Assembly: GCA_003255025.1 (NCBI GenBank) | Contig: QANY01013423.1 | Span: 1,787,779-1,851,778 of the forward strand | Source: Datisca glomerata | Taxonomy: Eukaryota; Streptophyta; Magnoliopsida; Cucurbitales; Datiscaceae | DNA: 64,000 nucleotides | Direction of reading: 5' to 3' | Part shown: positions 21,277 to 40,332 of the stretch, in pieces | Numbering within the stretch: position 1 is the first letter of the stretch | Layout of the letters: each line of letters opens with the position of its first letter | Notes under the pieces: model-generated | Seen by the model: the letters and a program-made list of their open reading frames with translations, nothing else | The model's database searches: none | Told to the model about the DNA's origin: nothing | Made by a program: the position numbers and the translations under genes

Positions 21277-21738
21277 GTAAGATCTTCAATTTAAAACACA
21301 TCGCAATCATGGATATTCTTCTTATTTGGTTCGTTAGCTTTATATCTGAAGAGAATTAGAGATTGGTCTTCTCGCATCTCGGATTTTGGGTTCCATAATT
21401 CCATTCCAGTAGATTATTAATTAATCCTGCCTTCGTCGTGTCCTTATTTCTGGCTGTTCGTCTGTTATGATTCATTTTTGCCGATTGACGTGGAAGTTAA
21501 TTAATTCAATCTTACTTGTATGTTTGAGCTCTGTAGACTTGAACTCCCATTACTCTCCTCGGCTATTAAGTTGCTTGACTTCCCCTGTTTCTTCTATGTT
21601 CATTGACGATCAATCAGACTGATGACATACTGGTAATTGGGTTAATTGTTCTGGCATTGATGTGAGGTGGAAGCACCTGGAATACATAAAATTTGCAAGT
21701 AACCTTGTAAGGAATTCTGCACATCTTTTGAGACTAAA

Positions 21739-24700
21739 ATGGATGGAGTTCATGAGGGTGATGGTGGGATGCATCTGAGCCAAGTGCAGCATGCGATACA
21801 TGCACAGTACGTGCAAGAGCAGGAACATCATAGTTTGCACCATTTGAGCAACGGTAATGGGATGGTTGATGAACATGACAATGGTGGTGGCATTAGTGAG
21901 GGCGAAGGTCACGATGTCCCCTCTGAACCCGGGGATTTCACTGATAATGGTAGTGGGCTGTTAGATCGCGGTATTGATTGTGGTGACCAGCTTACACTTT
22001 CTTTTCAGGGTCAGGTTTATGTCTTCGATTCTGTCTCACCTGAAAAGGTGATTCGATCCTTCAAGCTTGTTTTCACTGGTGTAATTGCTTTTACATGATA
22101 CCCGATAGATTATCTTTAACTGCTTGAGTTATTTGTTGCTGGATCTTTTGTATAATTTATTGAGCATCTAAACAAACTGCAACATGTGATTTGAAAGGAT
22201 TGCTCAAGTAAACAGTGTCTAACACGAATCTATTTAATATATAAATTCTATATTATTTGGCCTTCTCAGACTTTGTTGTCCATTGTCATGCGTGTCAAAT
22301 AGCAAAAATTTAAATGCATCAGTTTGGTGGAAAGGAAGAGTTTCTGATTGTATGGAAGATGCAAAGGTCATAGGTAGACTTTCATTCAAATAAAGTGGGA
22401 ATCTGTGATGGTAGCTTGATGCAGTTTGCACAATATTCCCCGGAATTCGGTCTGCTAGTCTTACTCTCCAAAACGTACTTTCCGGTGTTCTTGGTCTTAA
22501 AAAAATTGAGAGGAAATTTGCAAAATGGGAAGGAAGATAGGTTTAGAAGTTCTATGAAGTAACGAATGTTGCCAATATTTCTTAGTAAAAGGTTCAATCT
22601 ACGGAACTACGATATAAATGATGACAAAAAGTGGTGCTGCATTCTGGTAAAAAATTTGAGATCATCCCTACGCGATTACGAACATAGATACTTCTGTCAT
22701 TTGTTCACGTGCAACCTTAATTGTTAAATTCGATTAAAAATATTGTAAGACGTGTTGATGTTTCGTATCAGTTTTCTTAAATGGATTCGTCTCTTGAAAT
22801 TGAGGCTCGTTGATGGCCATCTTCTATCTATTGGCAAGTGGAAACTAATTATGTATTGGGTTATTGTTATCATTTCAATAGGTTAAAGGAGGTATAGAGG
22901 ATATATTAATCAGTTCAAGATTTTTCTCAGGTTCAAGCAGTGCTACTACTCTTGGGAGGTCGTGAAGTACCTCCAGGCATGGCTGCTATCCCGATAGCTA
23001 ATCAACACTCCGGGGTATGAATATGAATAGGTTACTGTGAAATGTAAATGTGCTACATAGCATCTAATGTCTTTCTTGGTGAAACGTTTTCAACCAGGCA
23101 CTTGTTGGTACCCCCCAACGTTTTAGCGTCCCCCAGAGACTGGCGTCTTTGATTAGATTTCGCGAAAAGCGAAAAGAGCGAAATTTTGACAAGAAAATTA
23201 GATATACTGTCCGTAAAGAGGTAGCGCTTAGGTAGGCCATCTTCCTTTCTGGTGCACTCAACTAATCTTTGTTCTTCAGGAAAAAACTTTTTGTGCTTCA
23301 ATAGTTAGGGTTCAGTATAATTTGCTGGGTTCTGATTGGACTTTAGTTCTATGTGCATGCTGTAATTAGCCAGTAGATGTAGAAGCTCTAGGATGATGAT
23401 ATGAGCCCTTTATGCTTGGCATGCATTATTTTTAAGCTTTGAACCTTCAGCGAAGATAGGTTTATGTGCAAACTATTAATACCATGTTTTGCTTGCTGGC
23501 TTTGGGGTTGCTTTTGGGTGCAGGCTGGGACAGGAACTACATTTCTGATCTGCTTTCGACCAATAATCCTAGAATTCTCTAACTAATATGTACTTGTTTC
23601 CAAGAGTGCTTCTTATATTAAATGAGCAACCTCCTTGGACATATATTTGTAATCGTAGCCTTCGATATTAAGATGCAATTACTTTACCATGTCAGCATTA
23701 CCACATTTTATATTTGGAAACCGGAAGTTGAACTTTTGTCATCCAATTTGCTTGGTTTTTTTGGAAGATTGTTATCTCTTTCGGTGAAGAGAGGTTTATT
23801 GGTTGTTCCTGTATTTGTATGACTCTTTCATTGTGCGTTATGGAGGAATGCTGAACAGTAGAAAGTTGACATGCCTTCCCTTGCATTTCACCTTTTGTAT
23901 CAATAAGGCAAGCAAAACACACTATGCACTCGTAGCAGCTGTCTGAGAAGGATTCATCCTCAATCCAATAATAATTATACTGTTTTAAATTGTATATCCT
24001 GGCAGTGTCTAATGTCGTTGTTGAACTTAGCTACAAATTGAAGCTTGAGTAATTATTTTCTGAAATCAATGAATTTATTTTGATAGATATTGTCATCTTC
24101 ATGGAAAGCTATGTGCTTAAAATGCAGTTAACATTTTGGCTTTAAGTGTATGTTATGTTGCTAATTTATAATATGACCAGCCTGATAGATGTCATTCTTA
24201 AGATATTGTATGAATAAAGATGTCATAATCATTGCTCCTCTATTGTCTTCTCGACTCTCGCAGGATGCAACGTAATAAAGGCCAATTTACATCTTCTAAG
24301 CCCAATCATGATGATTCTGCATCAGCTGTGACAAGTTGGGGATCAAATGAGAGCATCGGTGTGGATGGAAATGGATCCCAACTTCAAGAGACTGTGTAAG
24401 TTTGTGTACATTGTCGTATTAGGAAGATAATGATAGTTGTATCATTCAACTGGAGTATACCATGAAACATCAGAGTTAGTTGTAGTAAATTCCCTAGTTT
24501 TCTTTCTTACTTGGCGGGGGAGATTGAAACATTGGTAGGCATTTGGTGCTCACCTATGGAAGAGTTTCCTTCACTATTTTCCAAAGCTCCGCCTCCTGAA
24601 ACTTGAAGAAAGGGTAAATTTTAAGAAAAACGTGGAGCACACAAAAGTGGAGACAATGGGAGCGCAATGTATATTTTCTTATATATAGTCAATCTGCATG

Positions 24701-25857
24701 CAGGACGGTTAAATTCAAGGTTCAAGGCATTAACGCTTTCCTGGAACTTACTTTTATAATCCATCTATGTCAGATGCCGGCACTGTGGCATCAGTGAGAA
24801 GTCTACACCGATGATGCGACGTGGACCTGACGGGTCAAGGACCCTCTGCAATGCTTGTGGACTCATGTGGGCAAATAAGGTACAAATTAGGGCCTAGTAC
24901 AATCTCATATAAAGTTTTCTTTTCCCCTTGAAAAGAATGACGGTCCATGGGGAAAGGGTGGTATGATATTAGTTAATTGAACTGGTGAATTTGTTTGCTA
25001 TTGGTTCCATAGAAGTAGTAGGTTTTATTAACTACGGTAATTTCCACATATGATTAAATAATTTCTTGAACTTAAGTCCGCCACATAGTTCAAATGTTGA
25101 CTTATGTGGTTGAAGACATAGTGGTGGTAAAATGGACTACAAAAGCTGGTATTTGCAATTGTTGATGGGGAAAAGAATTTGAAATGCCTGTGCACGTTTT
25201 GTGGGTAGTGTCATTCGTTTTTCACAAACGTTAGACAATATATTAGAAGAAGAATCTTACATCCAAGGAGGAGGTCAATGAAATCAGGCCTCCTTAGTTT
25301 TTTGAGGTAGCAAACTTGGCGAGATTGTGTGCATGATTGTTTAAAGATCATGCAAAGTATTATTGAATAACTGCATATTGAACATCGATGCAATGGTTGT
25401 CCTGCATAGTGCTTTTTCAAACAAATGATCAACTTCAGGACCTGATTTCTTGACTTCTGACATTGGCATACTCTTTATCATTTGGATTTTCGTCCATATT
25501 TTTATTGCAAAGTTTTAACCATGAAGGGATGCGGATCATAGTGCTTCAACTGTGAGGAAAACAATTTGATATAACTTTCTGTATATTTTCTTTTGGCACG
25601 TGACTCAATGAAACACAGGGAACTTTGAGGGATCTCTCCAAAGCAGTGCCTCAAGGGGGACAGAATCCTTCTGTAAATAGGATTGAGGTAAGCAGTTGGT
25701 GTATATATTTGGACATGGTTCTTTCCACTTTGTCTATGATATTATCTTCTCTTTTTGGTCTCTCAACGTTAACTGTCTATGATATTTGCAGAACGGAAAA
25801 TCTAAGCCTGACCAAACGGCTCATGGAATTGCAGCAGATCAAAATGGCTCCACCTGA
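21739..25857 (+). CDS. GATA24: GATA transcription factor with TIFY and CCT domains (GATA24/ZML1-like)
   Basis: Seven coding exons give an uninterrupted 299-residue protein: 21739-22047, 22931-23014, 23098-23231, 24264-24395, 24774-24879, 25619-25687, 25792-25857. All introns are GT-AG and all phases agree. Residues 1-83 are rich in His, Gly, Asp and Glu. The TIFY domain starts at residue 84 ([20 protein letters not shown], so TLSF in place of TIFY) and runs into exon 2. The CCT domain (about 145-187, [20 protein letters not shown]) is in exons 3-4. A C-X2-C-X20-C-X2-C GATA finger uses Cys221, 224, 245 and 248. This domain order defines the ZIM/ZML subgroup: nuclear DNA-binding regulators, in Arabidopsis GATA24, 25 and 28. 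GATA24 is preferred over GATA28 because of the nearby BBX32-like gene. No defects were seen. Confidence 0.93.
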
Positions 25858-26243: not shown

Positions 26244-26394
26244 TCATGCCGTTTGCTTCATTTGATTTATTTTGAACGAGACAATTTTCACGCAGTTAAT
26301 CATACATGACCCCTCTCCCTCTCTCTCTCATGCCGTTAGCTTCATTTGATTTATTTTGAACGAGACAATTTTCACGCAGTTAATCATACATGAC
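26244..26394. repeat. Tandem duplication next to an ambiguous base
   Basis: A 67-bp segment starting TCATGCCGTT (26244-26310) is repeated at 26328-26394, a period of 84 bp, with one difference (T/A) noticed. The copies are separated by CT-rich DNA, and the first directly follows the N at 26243. It is either a recent duplication or an assembly artefact at a low-complexity run. Confidence 0.8.
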
Positions 26395-27567: not shown

Positions 27568-27916
27568 TAATGAAACTCGATCAATCGATATTCGAATATG
27601 TAACTCACGGTGTTAGGAAACACTATTCTTAACTCGCGGTGATAAGAGACACAAAGGATTTCCTTAGAAAAATACTTTATTAACCATTCACCGAACAATA
27701 GTACTCCATTATATATCCGGCTAAACAAAAGATCTACTACACAAGCACTAACCGAAAATTACATCAATCAATCACCAACTAGCTGAAAACTACCATAACC
27801 TCCCCAAACAACCCAACTAAAGATTAGCTACTAATTAACCACATAGTCATTTAATCGCACGTTACTATACTTGATGATTACCATGCCGAAGCATATCATT
27901 ATCGTCCGATCCATCA
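27568..27916 (-). repeat. Reina-type 3' LTR, antisense
   Basis: 349 bp. On the minus strand it starts TGATGGATCGGACG at 27916, preceded by a purine-rich stretch, and ends near 27568, where the terminal CA has become TA. It corresponds along its full length to 34423-34771 and, in the opposite orientation, to 28968-29317 and 30703-31050. Confidence 0.85.
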
Positions 27917-28720
27917 ATACTCTCCATGGGAAAATGAATCTTGTCCTCAAGGTTCAAATCCGAAAATCGTTCATAGTACTTAAATCGGCTCTCACGTTGC
28001 GTCTTCTTGGGGTAATTCCCACCATTGAACCAATGCTTCCCGAACACGTGTACCACGTTGTTGGACCCAACGAAAACTGAGCACCAATGCGGGTTCTAGA
28101 ACCATACGCCCGTCTTCATCTATGGATGAGTAGAAGGATGAATTAGGGCATGAGATCCCACTCGACGTTTCAACAAAGACACATGAAAAACCGGATGTAC
28201 CTTCGAACCTTCGGGTAGCTCCAATTTGTAGGCAACTTCTCCTATTCATTCCATCACTTTATACGGACCATAATACCGCGCCGCAAGTTTTTGAAAGGCA
28301 CGCTTAAACATCGATTGTTGTTGATACGGTTGGAGCTTTAAAAATATCTAATCTCCTTCTTAAAAATATTTGGGCCTATGTCCCTTATTGGTGAATTGCT
28401 TCATTTGATTCTGAGCATGATGAAGATTATCCTTAAGATCGCACAAAATATCACTACGAGACCGAAGAATTCAGTCAACTTCTTCAACCTGAGAACTTCC
28501 CGCACTATACTCAACCAATCTGGGCGAAGATCGACCATAAAGTGCTTCGAACAGTGTCATATCAGTCGAACGATGATACACAGTATTATACCAATATTCC
28601 GCCCAAGCCAGGAAAGACTCTCATTTCTTCGTAAATATTGTTCTTAACAACGATTCACCACTTCCGTTTGTCCATCGGTCTCTAGATGATAAGAGGGAAC
28701 TATATTTAATTTGTGTACCT
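27917..28720 (-). pseudogene. Integrase C-terminus and chromodomain remnant
   Basis: The minus strand carries the end of pol. Recognisable are QWWELPQEDAT (about 28015, in a neighbouring frame) and RFSDLNLEDKI just before the 3' LTR, the C-terminal edge of a chromovirus chromodomain. Such chromodomains tether integrase to modified histones. The region between integrase core and chromodomain is degraded by frameshifts. Confidence 0.65.
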
Positions 28721-28739
28721 TGAAGATGAAAAGTTCCTT

Positions 28740-28967
28740 CCAAAATATGCTCAAGAAAACCTGATCACGATCACCATAATGCTTTTCGGAACTCCATGTA
28801 GCCAAACAATATGACTAATAAAAAGCCCAGCAATCGTCTTGGCTGAATATGAGTGAATTAGAGAAATAAGATGTGCATACTTACTCAACCAATCTACCAC
28901 AACAAGAACCGTATTTTTTCCCCCGAATAAAGGCAGCCCATCGATGAAGTCCATCAAAATATCTGCT
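28740..28967 (-). pseudogene. Integrase catalytic core start, interrupted
   Basis: On the minus strand from 28967: ADILMDFIDGLP, then GKNTVLVVVDWLSKYAHLI, then GLFISHIVWLHGVPKSI. This is the start of the gypsy integrase core with the first catalytic Asp (MDFIDGLP). The preceding zinc-binding part lies at 31051-31280, on the other side of the nested element. Confidence 0.8.
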
Positions 28968-29317
28968 TGATCATCAGACGATATTGATATGCTTCGACGC
29001 GATACTCGAGTCAAGATAGTAACGTACGATTAAATGACTATGTGGTTAATTAGTAGTTAAATTATTAATTGGGTTGTTTGGGGAAGTTAATTAGTTTCGG
29101 CTAATTGATGATTGATTGATGTAATTGGACGGTTTTGATGTATTGTGGATCTTTTGTTTAGCCTGTTATATAATGCAGTGTTTTGGTTAGTTGAATGGTT
29201 AATGAATGAAGTATTTTCTAAGGAAAACCCTTGCATCTCCTAACATCGTAAGTTAAGAACAATGTAACCTAACACTGTGAGTTGAGAATTCAATCCTCGA
29301 TCCATCGAGTTTCATCA
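28968..29317 (+). repeat. 5' LTR and primer site of the nested derivative
   Basis: 350 bp from TGATCATCAGACG to GAGTTTCATCA. It is followed by TTGATATTAGAGC (29319-29331), a tRNA-Met primer site with two transitions. Confidence 0.85.
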
Positions 29318-29343
29318 GTTGATATTAGAGCAGCTGCTGCGTC

Positions 29344-29960
29344 ATGATGAATTGTGAATTGCTCGACCAGATTGAAGGGGTGGTAGACGAGATTCACGAG
29401 AGTCTTCCTACGCTCATTGAATTATCAACATCGAATCAAGAATCAATTCGACAACTTGTCAGCCTAGTTCAGGACAACACTGTCAAAAACAAAGGAAAGA
29501 AACGACATGACACGTCAGAATCGAATAGTTTATCTTCAGATGCCTGATCGGTTTCTTCAGCAAGAAATGTGAAGAATCCAGTGAGTGAGATGTCTTAAGA
29601 TGAAAGTAGCAACATGTCGAGTAGTGGACATTCTAAGAAGTCCAAGAAGCGAATGTCGCGGCTCAGAATGGATTTTCCAAAACTTTCCGGTGCAGATATG
29701 ATATTATGGTTAGACTGGGCGTGACAATATTTTTCAATCCAAGAAATAAAGCAAAGGAGGGCTCAAAACCTTTGCTTTAACTGTCATGGAAAAATTATTT
29801 ATGGCCATCAATGTCAAGTGGCTCAAGCGGTGTTGATCGATGCGATGGGTGAGGATGAAAAGACTGACCAAGAAGAGTGGCCGATGGAGTATGTTGATAG
29901 GGAGACGTCTCCGAAAACTGCAAAGGGAAATGCATCTGTTGCTAATTCATTGTCTGAATG
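29344..29960 (+). pseudogene. Shortened gag of the nested derivative
   Basis: The N-terminal frame 29344-29547 (MMNCELLDQIEGVVDEIHES) and a continuation with RMSRLRMDFPKLSGADMI (about 29650-29700) match the start of Reina gags. The sequence then jumps from QYFSIQE to IKQRRAQNLCFNC (about 29740-29800), deleting the central capsid but keeping the zinc knuckle (CFNCHGKIIYGHQC). The same knuckle block exists in the outer element near 33430. Stops are present. Homology to the outer element fades after the DEKTDQEE stretch (about 29860-29880), where captured DNA probably begins. Confidence 0.75.
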
Positions 29961-29979
29961 AAAATAAGACATGGGTATT

Positions 29980-30530
29980 CAAAAGATCCATAGACTGAAA
30001 ATTTTAAAGCTAAGGAGGAAAGTAGTAGTGGTCCTTATAAAGAGGAAGAAGAAGCACACTATTGTGATGATCGGATTGCCAATTCAGTAACCAAAACAAG
30101 GGGTAGATTGTGTAACACAAGATACTCCATTATCAAGAGTTTAAGCCATCAAAATATACAACTTTCAATTGAGAAAGGAATTCGAGCTACTCAAGTCATG
30201 AACAAAATCATTTCGGAGGAAGCCTTCCTTAATTCTACTAAAGTAATTCTAATATTTAGTGTCAATATGAGTGGCTTCTTCCAAGGGTATGCCCAAATGA
30301 TGTCATATGTCGGATGGATGTGTGATGATGTCTGGAGTAAAGGAACTGGTAAAAGTAATCCTTAGGGCCACAATTTGAAGGTAAAGTGGTTGTGGCTAAA
30401 TGTCTTTCCCTTCCAAAAGACTCTTCATCTAAAGATCCCATTCAATGATTACAAACCTGTGAAAATTAGTCGAGGCAGTCTTGAATTATCTCAAGATATT
30501 AAAGAAGCTCTTTGCAATCTTCTTGATGCG
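29980..30530 (+). pseudogene. Captured YTH-domain segment (YTHDC-type m6A reader), broken
   Basis: From 30117 one frame spans essentially a whole YTH domain: TRYSIIKSLSHQNIQLSIEK at the start, then KVILIFSVNMSGFFQGYAQM, VGW, then after one stop VKWLWLN, FQKTLHLK, NDYKPVKIS and a closing LLD. This order and wording are those of plant YTHDC-type proteins (the At4g11970 group). Upstream residues (29997-30116, KEESSSGPYKEEEEAH and similar) are probably the same gene. There is one stop at 30363-30365 where the family has Trp. The first aromatic-cage Trp (GIWATQ) is Arg here (30183); the second (VGW, 30315) is kept. No intron interrupts the domain, which suggests capture from mRNA. As it stands it cannot encode a full reader. 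Confidence 0.85.
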
Positions 30531-30599
30531 ACATGTGATTTTAAAGGCCCACTTACTCAGTTGTTAAAGAAAATGAGATTTATTTGGGTTGGAGGTGGC

Positions 30600-30702
30600 A
30601 GGATTTGCCTAGAAGACACGACTTGGGAGCCTATTCCGGTTCTACGTCAACGTTTTTCAGATTTGAACCTTGAGGACAAGGTTCCTTTCCAGCGGGGAGT
30701 AT
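30600..30702 (+). pseudogene. Chromodomain tail and polypurine tract of the nested derivative
   Basis: LEDTTWEPIPVLRQRFSDL followed by NLEDKV is the end of a Reina chromodomain and matches the outer element's tail. It is joined to the YTH segment by a short stretch (30530-30600) that appears frameshifted. AGCGGGGAGTAT precedes the 3' LTR. Confidence 0.75.
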
Positions 30703-31050
30703 TGATGGATCAGACAGTATTGATATACTTCGGCACGATAATCGAGTCAATATAGTAACGTACGATTAAACGACTATGTGGTTAATTAGTAGTCAAATCA
30801 TTAGTTGGTTGTTTGGGGAAGTTAATTAGTTTTGACTAATTGATGATTGATTGGTATAATCGGATGATTTTGATGTATTGTGGATCTTTTGTTTAGCTTG
30901 CTATATAACACAGTGCTTTGGTTCGTTGAATGGTTAATGAATGAAGTATTTTCTAAGAAAAATTCTTGTTTCTCTTAACACCGTGAGTTAAGAACAATTT
31001 CCTAACACTGTGAGTTAAGAATTCGATCCTTGATTCATCGAGTTTCATCA
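30703..31050 (+). repeat. 3' LTR of the nested derivative
   Basis: 348 bp from TGATGGATCAGACAG to GAGTTTCATCA. It is followed by CCGCC, the target duplication, and then the interrupted integrase. Confidence 0.85.
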
Positions 31051-31420
31051 CCGCCCAAATTTGTGTTGGAACGAGCAACGGGTTGAGTAATCCTGCAGGT
31101 GATTGAGCAACATACTTATTTTTCTGGCATATTTTACATTGATCAATGAATTTCTTAACGTCACGACGTGTGCTCGACCAAACAAAAGATAGCCTAAGCC
31201 TCCGATACGTACGTAATTCACCTGAATGCCCCCAATTACTGAATCATGGCACTCATGTATCAAGTCTTTCCTTATTCCTTCATCGTTCGAAACTAGAGCA
31301 CAATCTTCTTGAAAAATACATCATCCCCGAATTTTTCTTTCAAGGTTATCCCGATCGCCATTCTTTATTTCAAGAATCAGCTTACTAAGTGTAGGATTAG
31401 CAGCGGTAGCTTCCTTCAAT
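31051..31420 (-). pseudogene. Integrase zinc-binding domain, antisense
   Basis: Minus-strand remnants of the HHCC domain: HECHDSVIGG near 31250, then CKICQKN-like and SPAGLLNPLLVPTQIWA (31051-31120, frames shifted). Together with 28740-28967 it restores the expected gypsy order and proves the nested element's insertion point. Confidence 0.75.
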
Positions 31421-32720
31421 AGTTCCCATCCCATAAAGACCGGTTTAGAAATCACGATTAATTCAGCCGAATCTTCCCTTCGGGAAAAAACGTCTGCCTC
31501 ATGGTTCTCACGCCTGGGTCGATACGCAATCTCATAATCAAACCCAATCAACTTAGAAAGCCATATTTGTTGTTCCGGTGTATTATCCGTTGCTCCCAAA
31601 GATATCAAAGACTCCGCTAATCAGTGCAAATACGAAATCTTTTACCGAGCAAATAATGGCGCCATTGTTTTACTACTTGCAAAATGGCCAACATCTCCTT
31701 AGCATATATCGACCATTCTTTCTTAGTTGGCTCAAGAGTCTTACTAAGATAGGTGATAGGTCATCCTTTCTGCTGTAAAATAGCACCAATCCCAAAACCC
31801 GATGCATCAGTTTCAATCATGAACGTATCAGAAAAATTTGGTAATGTAAGACTTGTGTAGTAGTCATCGCTTACTTTAATTGTTGAAACGCACGATCGGC
31901 CTCCTCCGTCAACATAAATCTTCCTTTATTTAATAATTGAGTGAGAGGACGAGCGTTACTACCATAATGTCATACGAATTTCCGGTAATTACCGGTCAAT
32001 TTGAAGAATCCGCGTAGCGCCGTGACGCTTTGAGGTGTAAGCCATTGAACCATTGCCGTGATCTTTTACAGGTCTACCTTCACCCCATTTGATGTAATAA
32101 TGTGTCCCAAATACTCGACTTCTTTCTAGCTAAATTGACATTTGGATATATTTGATGTAAAATTGATTAGTGGCTAAAATGGTCAGAACCGTGCGTAGGT
32201 GATGAAGATGATCCTCCCAGGTTCGGCTGTAAATAAGAACATTGTCAAAAAATATGAAAAATAAAATGACGTAAATGAGGTCTCAAAATATCGTTCATGG
32301 CTACCTGAAACATTGACGGCGCGTTGCATAGACCAAACGACATGACCAAATATTCATAGTGGACGTTGTGAGTCTGAAATGCCGATTTGTGAACATCTTC
32401 AGGGTGTAGCTGAATCTTTTGGTAGCCCGCGTGAAGATAAAGCTTGGTAAAGAAGGTGGCACCAAAGAGTTCGTCAAGCATATCCTCAATCGTATGAATC
32501 AAAAATTGATCATTGATGGTCACTTCATTCAAAGCCCGATAGTTGGTGTAGAATCTCCAAGATCAATCTTTATTTTCCACCGAGAAGGCTGGCAATGAAA
32601 ATGGGCTCGTACTATGTCGAATTAATCATGTCTTTCGAATGTGAGCATAACGATCTCATCCTTTTGGAAATTCGCATAATGATATGGTGCAACGTTAACT
32701 GGCCGGCTTCATCTTTTAAT
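31421..32720 (-). pseudogene. Reverse transcriptase and RNase H of the outer Reina element
   Basis: On the minus strand: PSMINDQFLIHTIEDMLDEL-type and TKLYLHAGYQKIQL, then FGLCNAPSMFQ (32300-32530), the N-terminal half of gypsy RT. The FVDD-equivalent position is lost in a degraded stretch. RNase H follows (31900-31450), ending QQIWLSKLIGFDYEIAYRPR and DVFSRRED, the tether after RNase H. Several stops and frameshifts. Confidence 0.8.
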
Positions 32721-32974
32721 CAAATGTGATGATCAAAAGAACGAGACGATGGTAAAGTCGAAGGTACCTCCATAACTTTTTTGACTTCTTGAAGTAGTGT
32801 CGGCCACTCTTCTTGAATTCCCTCCATTGACATTCCAACTCCCGATATAGCAAATAATTCAGCTTCAGCCCGCCACTCGTGAAGTAAAGCATTTATCCCA
32901 ACAACAGACGAGACGAGAACCATACTTCCTTAGTCATGTGCTTGTAGTAAGAAATAATCGGTCCAAGATTCGCT

Positions 32975-33250
32975 AACCATTAAACCCCCAAAACGACATC
33001 CAATCCGGTAATGGGTAAAGAATAAAGGAAAGTAATAAACACGTGTCCTTGAATATTAAGCTTGACCCCATCATACCAGTTCCGACACCACATACGATCT
33101 TCGATAGCCACCTTAACTGTGAACGACATGATTGGTGTAACAACCAACTGTAATCTTCCCGCAACTTGTTCATTAACAAAATTATGGATCGATCCGTTAT
33201 CCACCAAAACGCTAACGGTCTGATTACACATCTTTGCCTCCATTCAGATA
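32975..33250 (-). pseudogene. Retropepsin-like protease of the outer Reina element
   Basis: On the minus strand: VSVLVDNGSIHNFV (family motif L-D-S/T-G; here DNG), then LPITGLDVVLGV, the C-terminal flap motif of gypsy proteases. The changed active-site triad (DNG) would be inactive. Confidence 0.8.
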
Positions 33251-33387
33251 GTCTATTTCCCTGCACCCCCAGCTATAGCATTCAGAGAGATTTCCGACTC
33301 TGATTCATTTGATTCACTTTCTTGATTGATCATTTCCTCTTCTTGGTCATTCTTTTCATCATCACCCATTGCATTGATCAACATTGC

Positions 33388-34340
33388 TTAAGTCACTTGA
33401 CATTGATGGCTAGGGACATACTTTTCATCACAATTAAAATAAAGATTTTGAGCCCGCCTCTGCTTCATTTCTTCGAATAAAAGGCTCTTAATCGTACCGG
33501 ATGGAGATGGTTTTGCCGATAAACTGATCCTCGAACTGTATTTTGTCGACACACCGATCCCTGAATTATAACCCAGTTTACTAGGAATCCTCATGGAACT
33601 AGTGTTGCTGCCCTTACGTGCATGTACTAACTTCTCATTTTGTCGTCATGCTAAATGAATTGCCTAAGATAGCTTTTTTCGGCTGGAACATCATATCTTC
33701 TGAAGCAATGTCTTCTTTCAACCGCCTAAGAATGTCCCCATCAATGCTTCAGTTGACCACCATTTTGCTTGGTTGGACAATCTCTCAAAATCACGTAGAT
33801 AATCATCGAATGATCCTCCTTGGCAAATCTTGGATAAAGACTCATCAACATTCTCGAAACTAGTCGGTCCGAATCTTTTGAGTAGCTTTTTCTCAAACAC
33901 CTTCCAAGTGACATCTTTTTCTGATTCTTACCCAGCCATTGCCACCACCGATTAGCATCTCCCTTCAAACGGAACGAATCCAACTGAACCTTTCATCGTC
34001 CTTGAATCTCTTGATAAAAAAATATTATCGCGCCCGGTCTAACCATACAAACGGATCCGCGTCAGAAAATTTTGAAAAATCCATTTTGAGTCACGGCATT
34101 CGCATCTTGTACTTCTTAGAATAACCATTGCTTGACGTATTGCTACTTTCGTTTGAAGACATCTCACTCATTGGATTCTTGACGTTTCTTGCCGAAGAAA
34201 TTGATCGGGCATCGGAAGAAGAACTCTTCGACTTTGACGTGTCGTGCCGTTTCTCGCCTTTCTTTTTTACAGCGTTATCCCAAGTTGGGCTAACAAGTTA
34301 CCGAATGGATTCTCGGTTCGATGTGATAACTCAATGAAAG
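33388..34340 (-). pseudogene. Gag of the outer Reina element
   Basis: On the minus strand: start near 34170, a DPFVWLDRA block (34050), LDSFRLKGDANRWWQWL (about 33950-33985), a capsid stretch to 33720, and the knuckle QRRAQNLYFNCDEKYVPSHQC (33405-33470), where the first Cys of the CCHC is Tyr-shifted. It is broken by several stops. The gag is longer than that of the nested derivative, which lacks the capsid. Confidence 0.75.
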
Positions 34341-34422
34341 CTCGAAGACTCTAGCGAATCTCAATCTGGTTCAGTCGTTCATTCACGGTTCGTCACTCCA
34401 AAGTGTTGGCTCTAATACCAAT

Positions 34423-34771
34423 TGATAAAACTCGATCAATTGATATTTGAATTCCTATCTCACGGTGTTAGGAGACACTATTCTTAACTCACGTTGTTAA
34501 GAGACGCAAGAGATTTCCTTAGAAAAATACTTCATTAACCATTCACCAAACAATAGCATTGCATTATATAGCAAGCTAAACAAAAGATCTACTACACAAG
34601 CATCAACCGAAAATTACATCAACCAATCACCAACTAGCCAAAAACTACCATAACCTCCCCAAACAACCCAACTAAAGATTAACTACTAATTAACCACAGT
34701 CCTTTAATCGTACGTTATCATACTTGACCTGATTACCGCGCTGAAACATATCATTACCGTCTGATCCATCA
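34423..34771 (-). repeat. Reina-type 5' LTR, antisense, with primer site
   Basis: 349 bp. On the minus strand it starts TGATGGATCAGACGG at 34771 and ends TTTTATCA at 34423. The primer site TTGGTATTAGAGC (34409-34421) follows. Outer flank TCGGC pairs with TCGAC at 27563-27567. Confidence 0.85.
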
Positions 34772-34776
34772 TCGGC

Positions 34777-39059: not shown

Positions 39060-40332
39060 TTTGTCATCCTGGACACTAGATTCATGAGCCACTAACCATA
39101 TATGTTCTTCTTTGTAGATGTTTGATTCGCAAGGGAGCTGGCTGATGGCGAGGTTATTATGAGAGTCGGCAGTGGTGCGCTTGTGTCAGCGAAACCATTG
39201 GGGACAGTCCATCATAATTTTGAAAATAATTATTTAATTTTAAATAATGCTTATTATATTCTTGGACTTTCGAGAAATTTGATTTCTCTTTCGTCACTGC
39301 ATGAATAATTTTTGAAGTTTCTTTAATTAATAATGAGTTTATTATTTCTAAGAATGGATTCAATATTTGTCATGTAAAAATAGCGAACGAAATGTATATG
39401 CTTAAACTGACTGAACACGCGTTAAATAATACTGATTTATTTAAAGTAGCAAAACTAAAAGTAACAAACGATAAAGAGTTTCTCATGATGATGATAACAA
39501 GTATCTATGGCATCTTATGTTGGGACATATTAATCTAGATAGGTTAAAGAGGTTAACAATGCATGGTGCATTGAGAGAGCTGAAAGTTGGAACTCTTCCT
39601 GTTTGTGAATCCTGTTTAGAGGGTAAAATGACCAAGAGACCTTTCACATGAAAGGGCCAAAGAGCCAAGGAACCACTTGATCTAGTGTATAGTGGTGTCT
39701 GTGGACCGATCAATGTACAAGCTAGTGGTGGGTATGCGTATTTTGTCACTATCAATTCGAGGTGTGAATACTTGAATTTAGAATTTAACGATTACTTGCT
39801 GGAGTATGGAATCATATCCCAACTCAGAATCATATCCCAACTCACAACACCTGAAAAGCCACATCAAAATGGTGTTTTAGAAAGGAGAAACCGAACCATA
39901 TTAGATATAGTTAGGTTGATGTTAAGCTACTTATCACCACCACTTACATTTTGGGGATATGCTTTACACACGACAACATACATTTTGAATGTAGTGCATT
40001 CAAAATCTGTAAGCAATACACTTTTAGAGTTATGGAATGGATCCAAACACAGTTTATGTCATTTTCATATATGGGGGTGTCCAGCTCACGTTCTTAGACC
40101 CAAGATTAGAAAGTTAGACTCAAGGTCAGAAGTGTGCATATTTGTTGGCTATGCTCCAGAGACTAGAGATGGGTACTTTTATAGTCACAATGATAAAAAG
40201 ATGTTTGTATCCAAAAATGCCACCTTCCCTGAACATCACTATATGGAAAACTACAAATCTCGAAGAAAAGTAGTTCTAAAAGAATTTGTGTTTGATGAAA
40301 TCAGACAACCTTCATCATCAGCTGATAAATGA
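39060..40332 (+). pseudogene. Copia protease and integrase
   Basis: A protease remnant starts at 39063 (TLDS, family motif DSGA) and continues to 39360 with ILGLSRNLISLSSLHE. The pre-integrase domain (39500-39680) has WHLMLGHINLDRLKR and CESCLEGKMTKRPF. The integrase core 39685-40332 reads VYSGVCGPINVQASGGYAYF, then jumps by deletion to the second half (PHQNGVLERRNRTILD, LTFWGYALHTTTYILN, and a KKMFVSKNATFPE end). The last part is a 215-codon open frame, the longest in the window, but the deletion removes part of the catalytic core. Confidence 0.85.

Follow-up and report, generated by a model that had tools for sequence, protein, structure and literature searches.

A decayed YTH domain in place of pol in a small LTR element nested within a Ty3/gypsy relative in Datisca glomerata

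The window, i.e., the whole stretch of 64,000 nucleotides of Datisca glomerata DNA that was analyzed, contains two nested LTR elements of one family, and the inner one (2.08 kb, 28968-31050, with an LTR at each end) carries a YTH domain between its gag remnant and its 3' tail (Table 1). Upstream, outside both elements, the forward strand contains exons of a gene for a ZIM-like transcription factor with TIFY, CCT, and GATA zinc-finger domains (21703-24885). Two direct repeats of 67 bp, 99% identical and 84 bp apart, are found within CT-rich sequence at 26244-26394, a stretch that starts with an N. On the forward strand at 39652-40329, there is also a retroelement integrase remnant with an SH3-like domain (Pfam 1.4e-18), which we take to be Copia-like.

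Table 1. Features of the two nested elements, in positions of the window
Feature	Positions	Strand	Basis or remark
Outer Ty3/gypsy element, same family, interrupted by inner element	27570..34775	-	LTR pair, Pfam
5' LTR, inner element	28968..29317	+	88.6% identity to 3' LTR, K2P 0.127
Primer-binding-site-like sequence (GTTGATATTAGAGCAGC...)	29318..29340	+	Directly 3' of 5' LTR
gag remnant with large internal loss, frame of 29344	29389..29877	+	DNA homology to outer gag
Foreign segment replacing pol, YTH inside	29878..30607	+	Without counterpart in outer element
YTH domain, one in-frame TAG, first cage Trp = Arg	30117..30530	+	Pfam PF04146, PDB matches
3' coding tail and purine-rich tract, in YTH frame	30608..30700	+	79% DNA identity to outer tail
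3' LTR, inner element	30703..31050	+	LTR pair comparison

The inner element has the features of a Ty3/gypsy LTR element: paired LTRs, a gag of the family, a putative primer site, and a purine-rich tract. The identity of its LTRs was computed over 350 columns, and a second comparison gave 88.4%. The outer element has TTGGTATTAGAGCC where the inner one has the primer-site-like GTTGATATTAGAGCAGC, which we presume to match an initiator Met tRNA, and a purine-rich tract sits just 5' of the inner 3' LTR; "primer site" and "purine-rich tract" are names that we assume for these sequences. The gag remnant aligns with outer gag in two pieces (79.1% and 81.8% DNA identity) and is interrupted by three stops, at 29545, 29596, and 29722. 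Changes between inner and outer gag fall on the three codon positions as 24/16/33 in the long piece and 9/5/9 in the short one, which is a slight bias, and no Pfam match to gag was found in the inner pieces. The initial annotation had described an LTR element with a primer site, a polypurine tract, a target duplication, a gag, and a chromodomain tail. Much of this anatomy holds, including gag by its DNA homology to the outer copy, but the 5-bp flanks (CTGCT and CCGCC) are equal at three of five bases, a possible target duplication that is weak and degenerate. No Pfam match to a chromodomain was obtained in the 3' tail of either element, and the tail is presumed to be one solely from the motif EDTTWEP...LRQRF. 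The Reina-type chromovirus named in the initial annotation is a candidate assignment.

The outer element is 7.2 kb long, with LTRs at 27570-27916 and 34425-34775 that are 88.0% identical (K2P 0.150, a value that includes flanking columns outside the LTR ends). Its gag, protease, and reverse transcriptase (RT) pieces score above the Pfam cut-offs and its integrase below. The integrase frame is split by the inner element, between a PTQIWA piece and an ADILMDF piece, and the outer LTRs flank the inner element, which bears out the earlier claim that it had inserted into another element; it did so in reverse orientation. Inner and outer LTRs are ~79% identical to each other, and gag 79-82%. Since the inner element interrupts it, the outer element is the older of the two. 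This order is shown by the nesting and not by LTR divergence alone, which is about the same in the two pairs. The nesting also creates inverted arms (29428-29877 versus 33337-34324), with matches of 312 bp (79%) and 146 bp (81%), and a read-through RNA over these arms could form a long hairpin and yield small RNAs against the element family.

When the two elements are aligned, gag ends at 29877 and the 3' tail restarts at 30608, and the 730 bp in between are found in the inner element only. Pol is absent from the inner element, and the gap it leaves is exactly the position of the foreign segment. A comparison of 29878-30590 with the rest of the window gave no other match above chance. A Pfam profile search of the kind that had been proposed for the suspected YTH domain gave two matches to PF04146, both well above the Pfam cut-off of 22.1 bits: 30042-30365 (E 7.7e-19, 68.2 bits, profile positions 1-78 of 135) and 30369-30600 (E 4.2e-8, 33.5 bits, positions 84-134). 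The two share one forward-strand frame, that of 30042, with a single TAG (30363-30365) between them, and together they match the family significantly across the whole domain. Apart from this TAG, no stop occurs in the frame between 29994 and 30752, while random sequences of equal length and composition contain a mean of 17 stops and none of 5,000 had as few as one. The YTH observation is therefore confirmed, well beyond chance. There is a negligible probability that the similarity arose by chance or that an intact host gene runs across the site with the segment as one of its exons, an outcome that the initial annotation had named as counting against it; no evidence was found for either. Chance is ruled out by the E value of 7.7e-19; as for a host gene, element sequence bounds the segment on both sides, and its pieces match nothing else in the window. 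Searches for relatives gave 20 and 7 pattern matches in viral contigs and 75 in prokaryote genomes, of which none was confirmed in either case, and this fits a plant gene.

In a comparison with PDB sequences, the first half of the domain has as its top chain 5zuu, labelled CPSF30 (1.5e-11), followed by YTHDC2 and YTHDC1 chains, and 5zuu again comes first for the second half (2.3e-6). Like the plant YTHDC proteins (DCA, i.e., CPSF30-L, and DCB), the copy has a DC-type YTH domain over its full length, but it differs from them in its damaged frame and aromatic cage. With cage residues taken as in PMC7384225, the first Trp has been replaced by Arg (GVWATQ in 5zuu reads GIRATQ in the copy). Both this loss and the in-frame stop had been noticed earlier and are indeed there, and the copy has neither the intact cage nor the open frame of a working reader.

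Which host gene supplied the domain can be narrowed down. Over 63 aligned residues, the copy is equal to CPSF30 at 29, to YTHDC1 at 28, and to YTHDC2 at 27. A young copy of CPSF30-L would, we infer, be equal to it at more than 29 residues, and this gene was rejected as donor. The other plant clade, DCB, has ECT12 as a member. PMC10606907 distinguishes two plant DC clades, DCA, which is CPSF30-L and has zinc fingers, and DCB, and reports that monocots have lost DCB. Since the low identity excludes CPSF30 (DCA), DCB is the likeliest source, and the donor was probably a DCB/ECT12-like mRNA of a non-monocot plant, a candidate reached by exclusion. In two plant family papers, every YTH gene contains introns (in wheat mostly 5-8; in Camellia, whose set includes one DCB gene, mostly 5-9). 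The YTH domain of the copy is intron-free over its full length, which, set against these intron-bearing genes, points to a spliced host mRNA as the probable source, with splicing deduced from the intron counts in the literature. The proposal that pol had been replaced by a spliced YTHDC-type mRNA segment is thus upheld for the replacement, which lies between gag and the 3' tail, and is probable for the splicing. The flanks of the domain within the segment (29878-30116 and 30531-30607) would come from the same host mRNA. A different set of YTH genes is reported for Salvia miltiorrhiza in PMC12110915, where 12 YTH genes are clustered, none is a YTHDC member, and most of the proteins have an F-box-associated domain; this set is a candidate for transposon involvement.

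The junctions offer a glimpse of how the segment may have entered. At both points of divergence between the inner and the outer element, the outer gag end and the outer 3' tail have in common a 9-bp repeat, CCAAGAAGA. When the letters of the two 30-bp stretches were shuffled, 34 of 5,000 trials shared as much, a figure that serves as a guide only because the points were picked where homology ends. The central loss in the gag of the inner element likewise ends at 16 bases that align to both sides. The presence of CCAAGAAGA at both junctions suggests template jumping by RT, and strand transfer during reverse transcription would fit both marks. No word longer than six bases is common to the two junctions, the longest being AGAAGA; neither junction window contains a repeat of at least 10 bases; and there is no A run longer than four in 30501-30620. 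A LINE retrocopy was rejected on the absence of such an A run and on the shared word of at most six bases. Plant retrogenes are mostly flanked by LTR elements, according to PMC4838847. The LTR-mediated template-switch retrocopies described there and in PMC13317346 resemble the present case in that LTR-element sequence flanks the host mRNA copy on either side and that poly-A is missing near the junction, but here a complete element with both LTRs encloses the segment.

It is decidedly improbable that a retrocopy or DNA fragment of a host YTH gene entered the element after its insertion, through a LINE or during repair, and was never mobilized by LTR machinery. In its favor, one copy is known, the capture is not dated directly, and the AGAAGA at both junctions might represent a very short duplication. 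Such a late entry is at odds with a pol gap lying exactly between the junctions, with the occurrence of one 9-bp repeat at both departure points in the outer element, as expected for a jump during reverse transcription, and with the lack of an A run longer than four near the 3' junction.

We consider it likely instead that a pol-less Ty3/gypsy derivative captured a spliced YTHDC-type mRNA via a template jump, inserted into a relative, and is now dead. In such a course of events, a pol-deleted derivative would have been copied by the enzymes of a relative, and RT would have switched template at AGAAGA-type microhomology to a spliced host mRNA of YTHDC type, probably DCB/ECT12-like, most of whose coding part was thereby brought in. 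The chimera would then have landed in an older member of the same family, after which its frames would have decayed as neutral DNA. The capture was probably a single event, and it may well have taken place in the same round as the insertion, the switch occurring while this very copy was being made. The initial annotation had inferred at least one move of the element after the YTH segment replaced pol. This does not follow, since capture and insertion may coincide and the window contains one copy.

How far has the captured frame decayed, and is this decay compatible with the age of the insertion? With 1.3e-8 or 7e-9 substitutions per site per year, the K2P of 0.127 between the inner LTRs dates the insertion to about 5 or 9 million years ago. 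Neutral change since then was taken as half of the LTR divergence. The frame of the YTH domain and tail (236 codons from 29997) has one stop versus 1.7 (uniform) to 2.8 (GC-to-AT biased) expected; the insert read from 29961 has two versus 1.4-2.3, and gag has three versus 1.5-2.6. Free drift to K of at least 0.15 leaves one stop or none in at most 0.5% of runs, and drift to K 0.1 does so in 5%. One stop versus 1.7-2.8 expected implies an open or nearly open frame at the time of insertion, and the present state of the frames matches the neutral expectation, so that decay since insertion would explain it. An open frame at that time is predicted equally by the fresh capture of an intact mRNA and by selection within a family of elements.

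Such a family is the more elaborate possibility, and to us a rather unlikely one: the capture would have been earlier, in a non-autonomous family with a gag-YTH-tail frame mobilized repeatedly by autonomous relatives, perhaps because m6A reading on its own RNA or that of the host helped. Besides the open or nearly open frame, three observations speak for it. First, 708 bp contain no frameshift, although the LTR pair predicts ~3 indels (P 0.048), which speaks slightly against plain decay. Second, of the 25 residues that do not vary among three PDB proteins, 18 are kept and 7 are changed, which is about twice the expectation from LTR age; the excess may reflect either an older capture or just differences of the donor clade. 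Third, although the gag frame differs from that of the YTH domain and tail, the change falls between 29958 and 29994, and the gag and tail codons at the 9-bp repeat are 740 bases apart, i.e., one frameshift from a single frame. Given one frameshift between ~29958 and 29994, a gag-YTH-tail fusion may thus once have existed. Against a family stand the single copy in the window, the equal power of a fresh capture to account for the open frame, the loss of the first cage Trp, and the lack of enrichment of m6A-type motifs. In addition, YTH goes unnamed among the non-canonical domains of LTR elements in the text of an RT-anchored screen of 121 genomes (PMC9289625).

The motif counts are close to expectation for DRACH (36 versus 35.6 expected in the element) and give no enrichment for RRACH (22 versus 24.6) or URUAY (6 versus 8.3). 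As far as its sequence can tell, the element is probably without a function of its own today. A working RNA-mark reader is unsupported, with a broken cage, a stopped frame, motifs that are not enriched, and one copy in the window. Silencing of the donor gene by small RNAs from the element is likewise unsupported. A bolder form of the family idea, that this is a decayed member whose intact copies encode a gag-YTH-chromodomain capsid that recognizes m6A in its own RNA or in that of the host, is in our view highly improbable. If true, such a capsid would select RNA for packaging or blunt m6A-based control, and an RNA-mark reader would be found aboard an RNA-based parasite.

That plant LTR elements capture host genes is itself well known, and PMC13317346 names Bs1, Rider, and 1,343 transduced sequences in sorghum. 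The same source allows a closer comparison with Bs1 of maize and similar elements, which are also small, pol-less LTR elements with host coding pieces, captured via RNA as is probable here. For the Datisca element, the position inside the element termini and the replacement of pol are seen directly, and splicing is read from intron counts. The difference from the Bs1 type is that the cargo here is a YTH domain, in one decayed copy in the window known from DNA alone. A precedent for the m6A pathway is found in orchids, where Ty3/gypsy elements carry an AlkB-type m6A RNA demethylase; as PMC9289625 reports, these elements are 25 kb long, the added ORF is present in many consensuses, and the demethylase is active in vitro. 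It was found by an RT-anchored screen of 121 angiosperm genomes. In both cases, an m6A-pathway domain was taken up by a gypsy element, but the Datisca element is 2.1 kb, has had its pol replaced, and carries a broken reader domain in one copy in the window. Among the matches listed in our literature search (titles and abstract openings, mainly from the open-access literature), there was no report of an LTR element with a YTH domain. YTH is likewise absent from the text section of PMC9289625 that deals with non-canonical domains, and that screen, being anchored on RT, would miss pol-less elements such as the inner element. What appears to be new here is the YTH cargo; gene capture and an m6A eraser in LTR elements were already known.

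Taken together, these findings add an m6A reader to the host pieces found in plant LTR elements, beside the m6A eraser of orchids (PMC9289625). The copy in the inner element is, as it stands, a decayed fossil. If intact multi-copy relatives exist, the manipulation of m6A reading by transposons would become testable.
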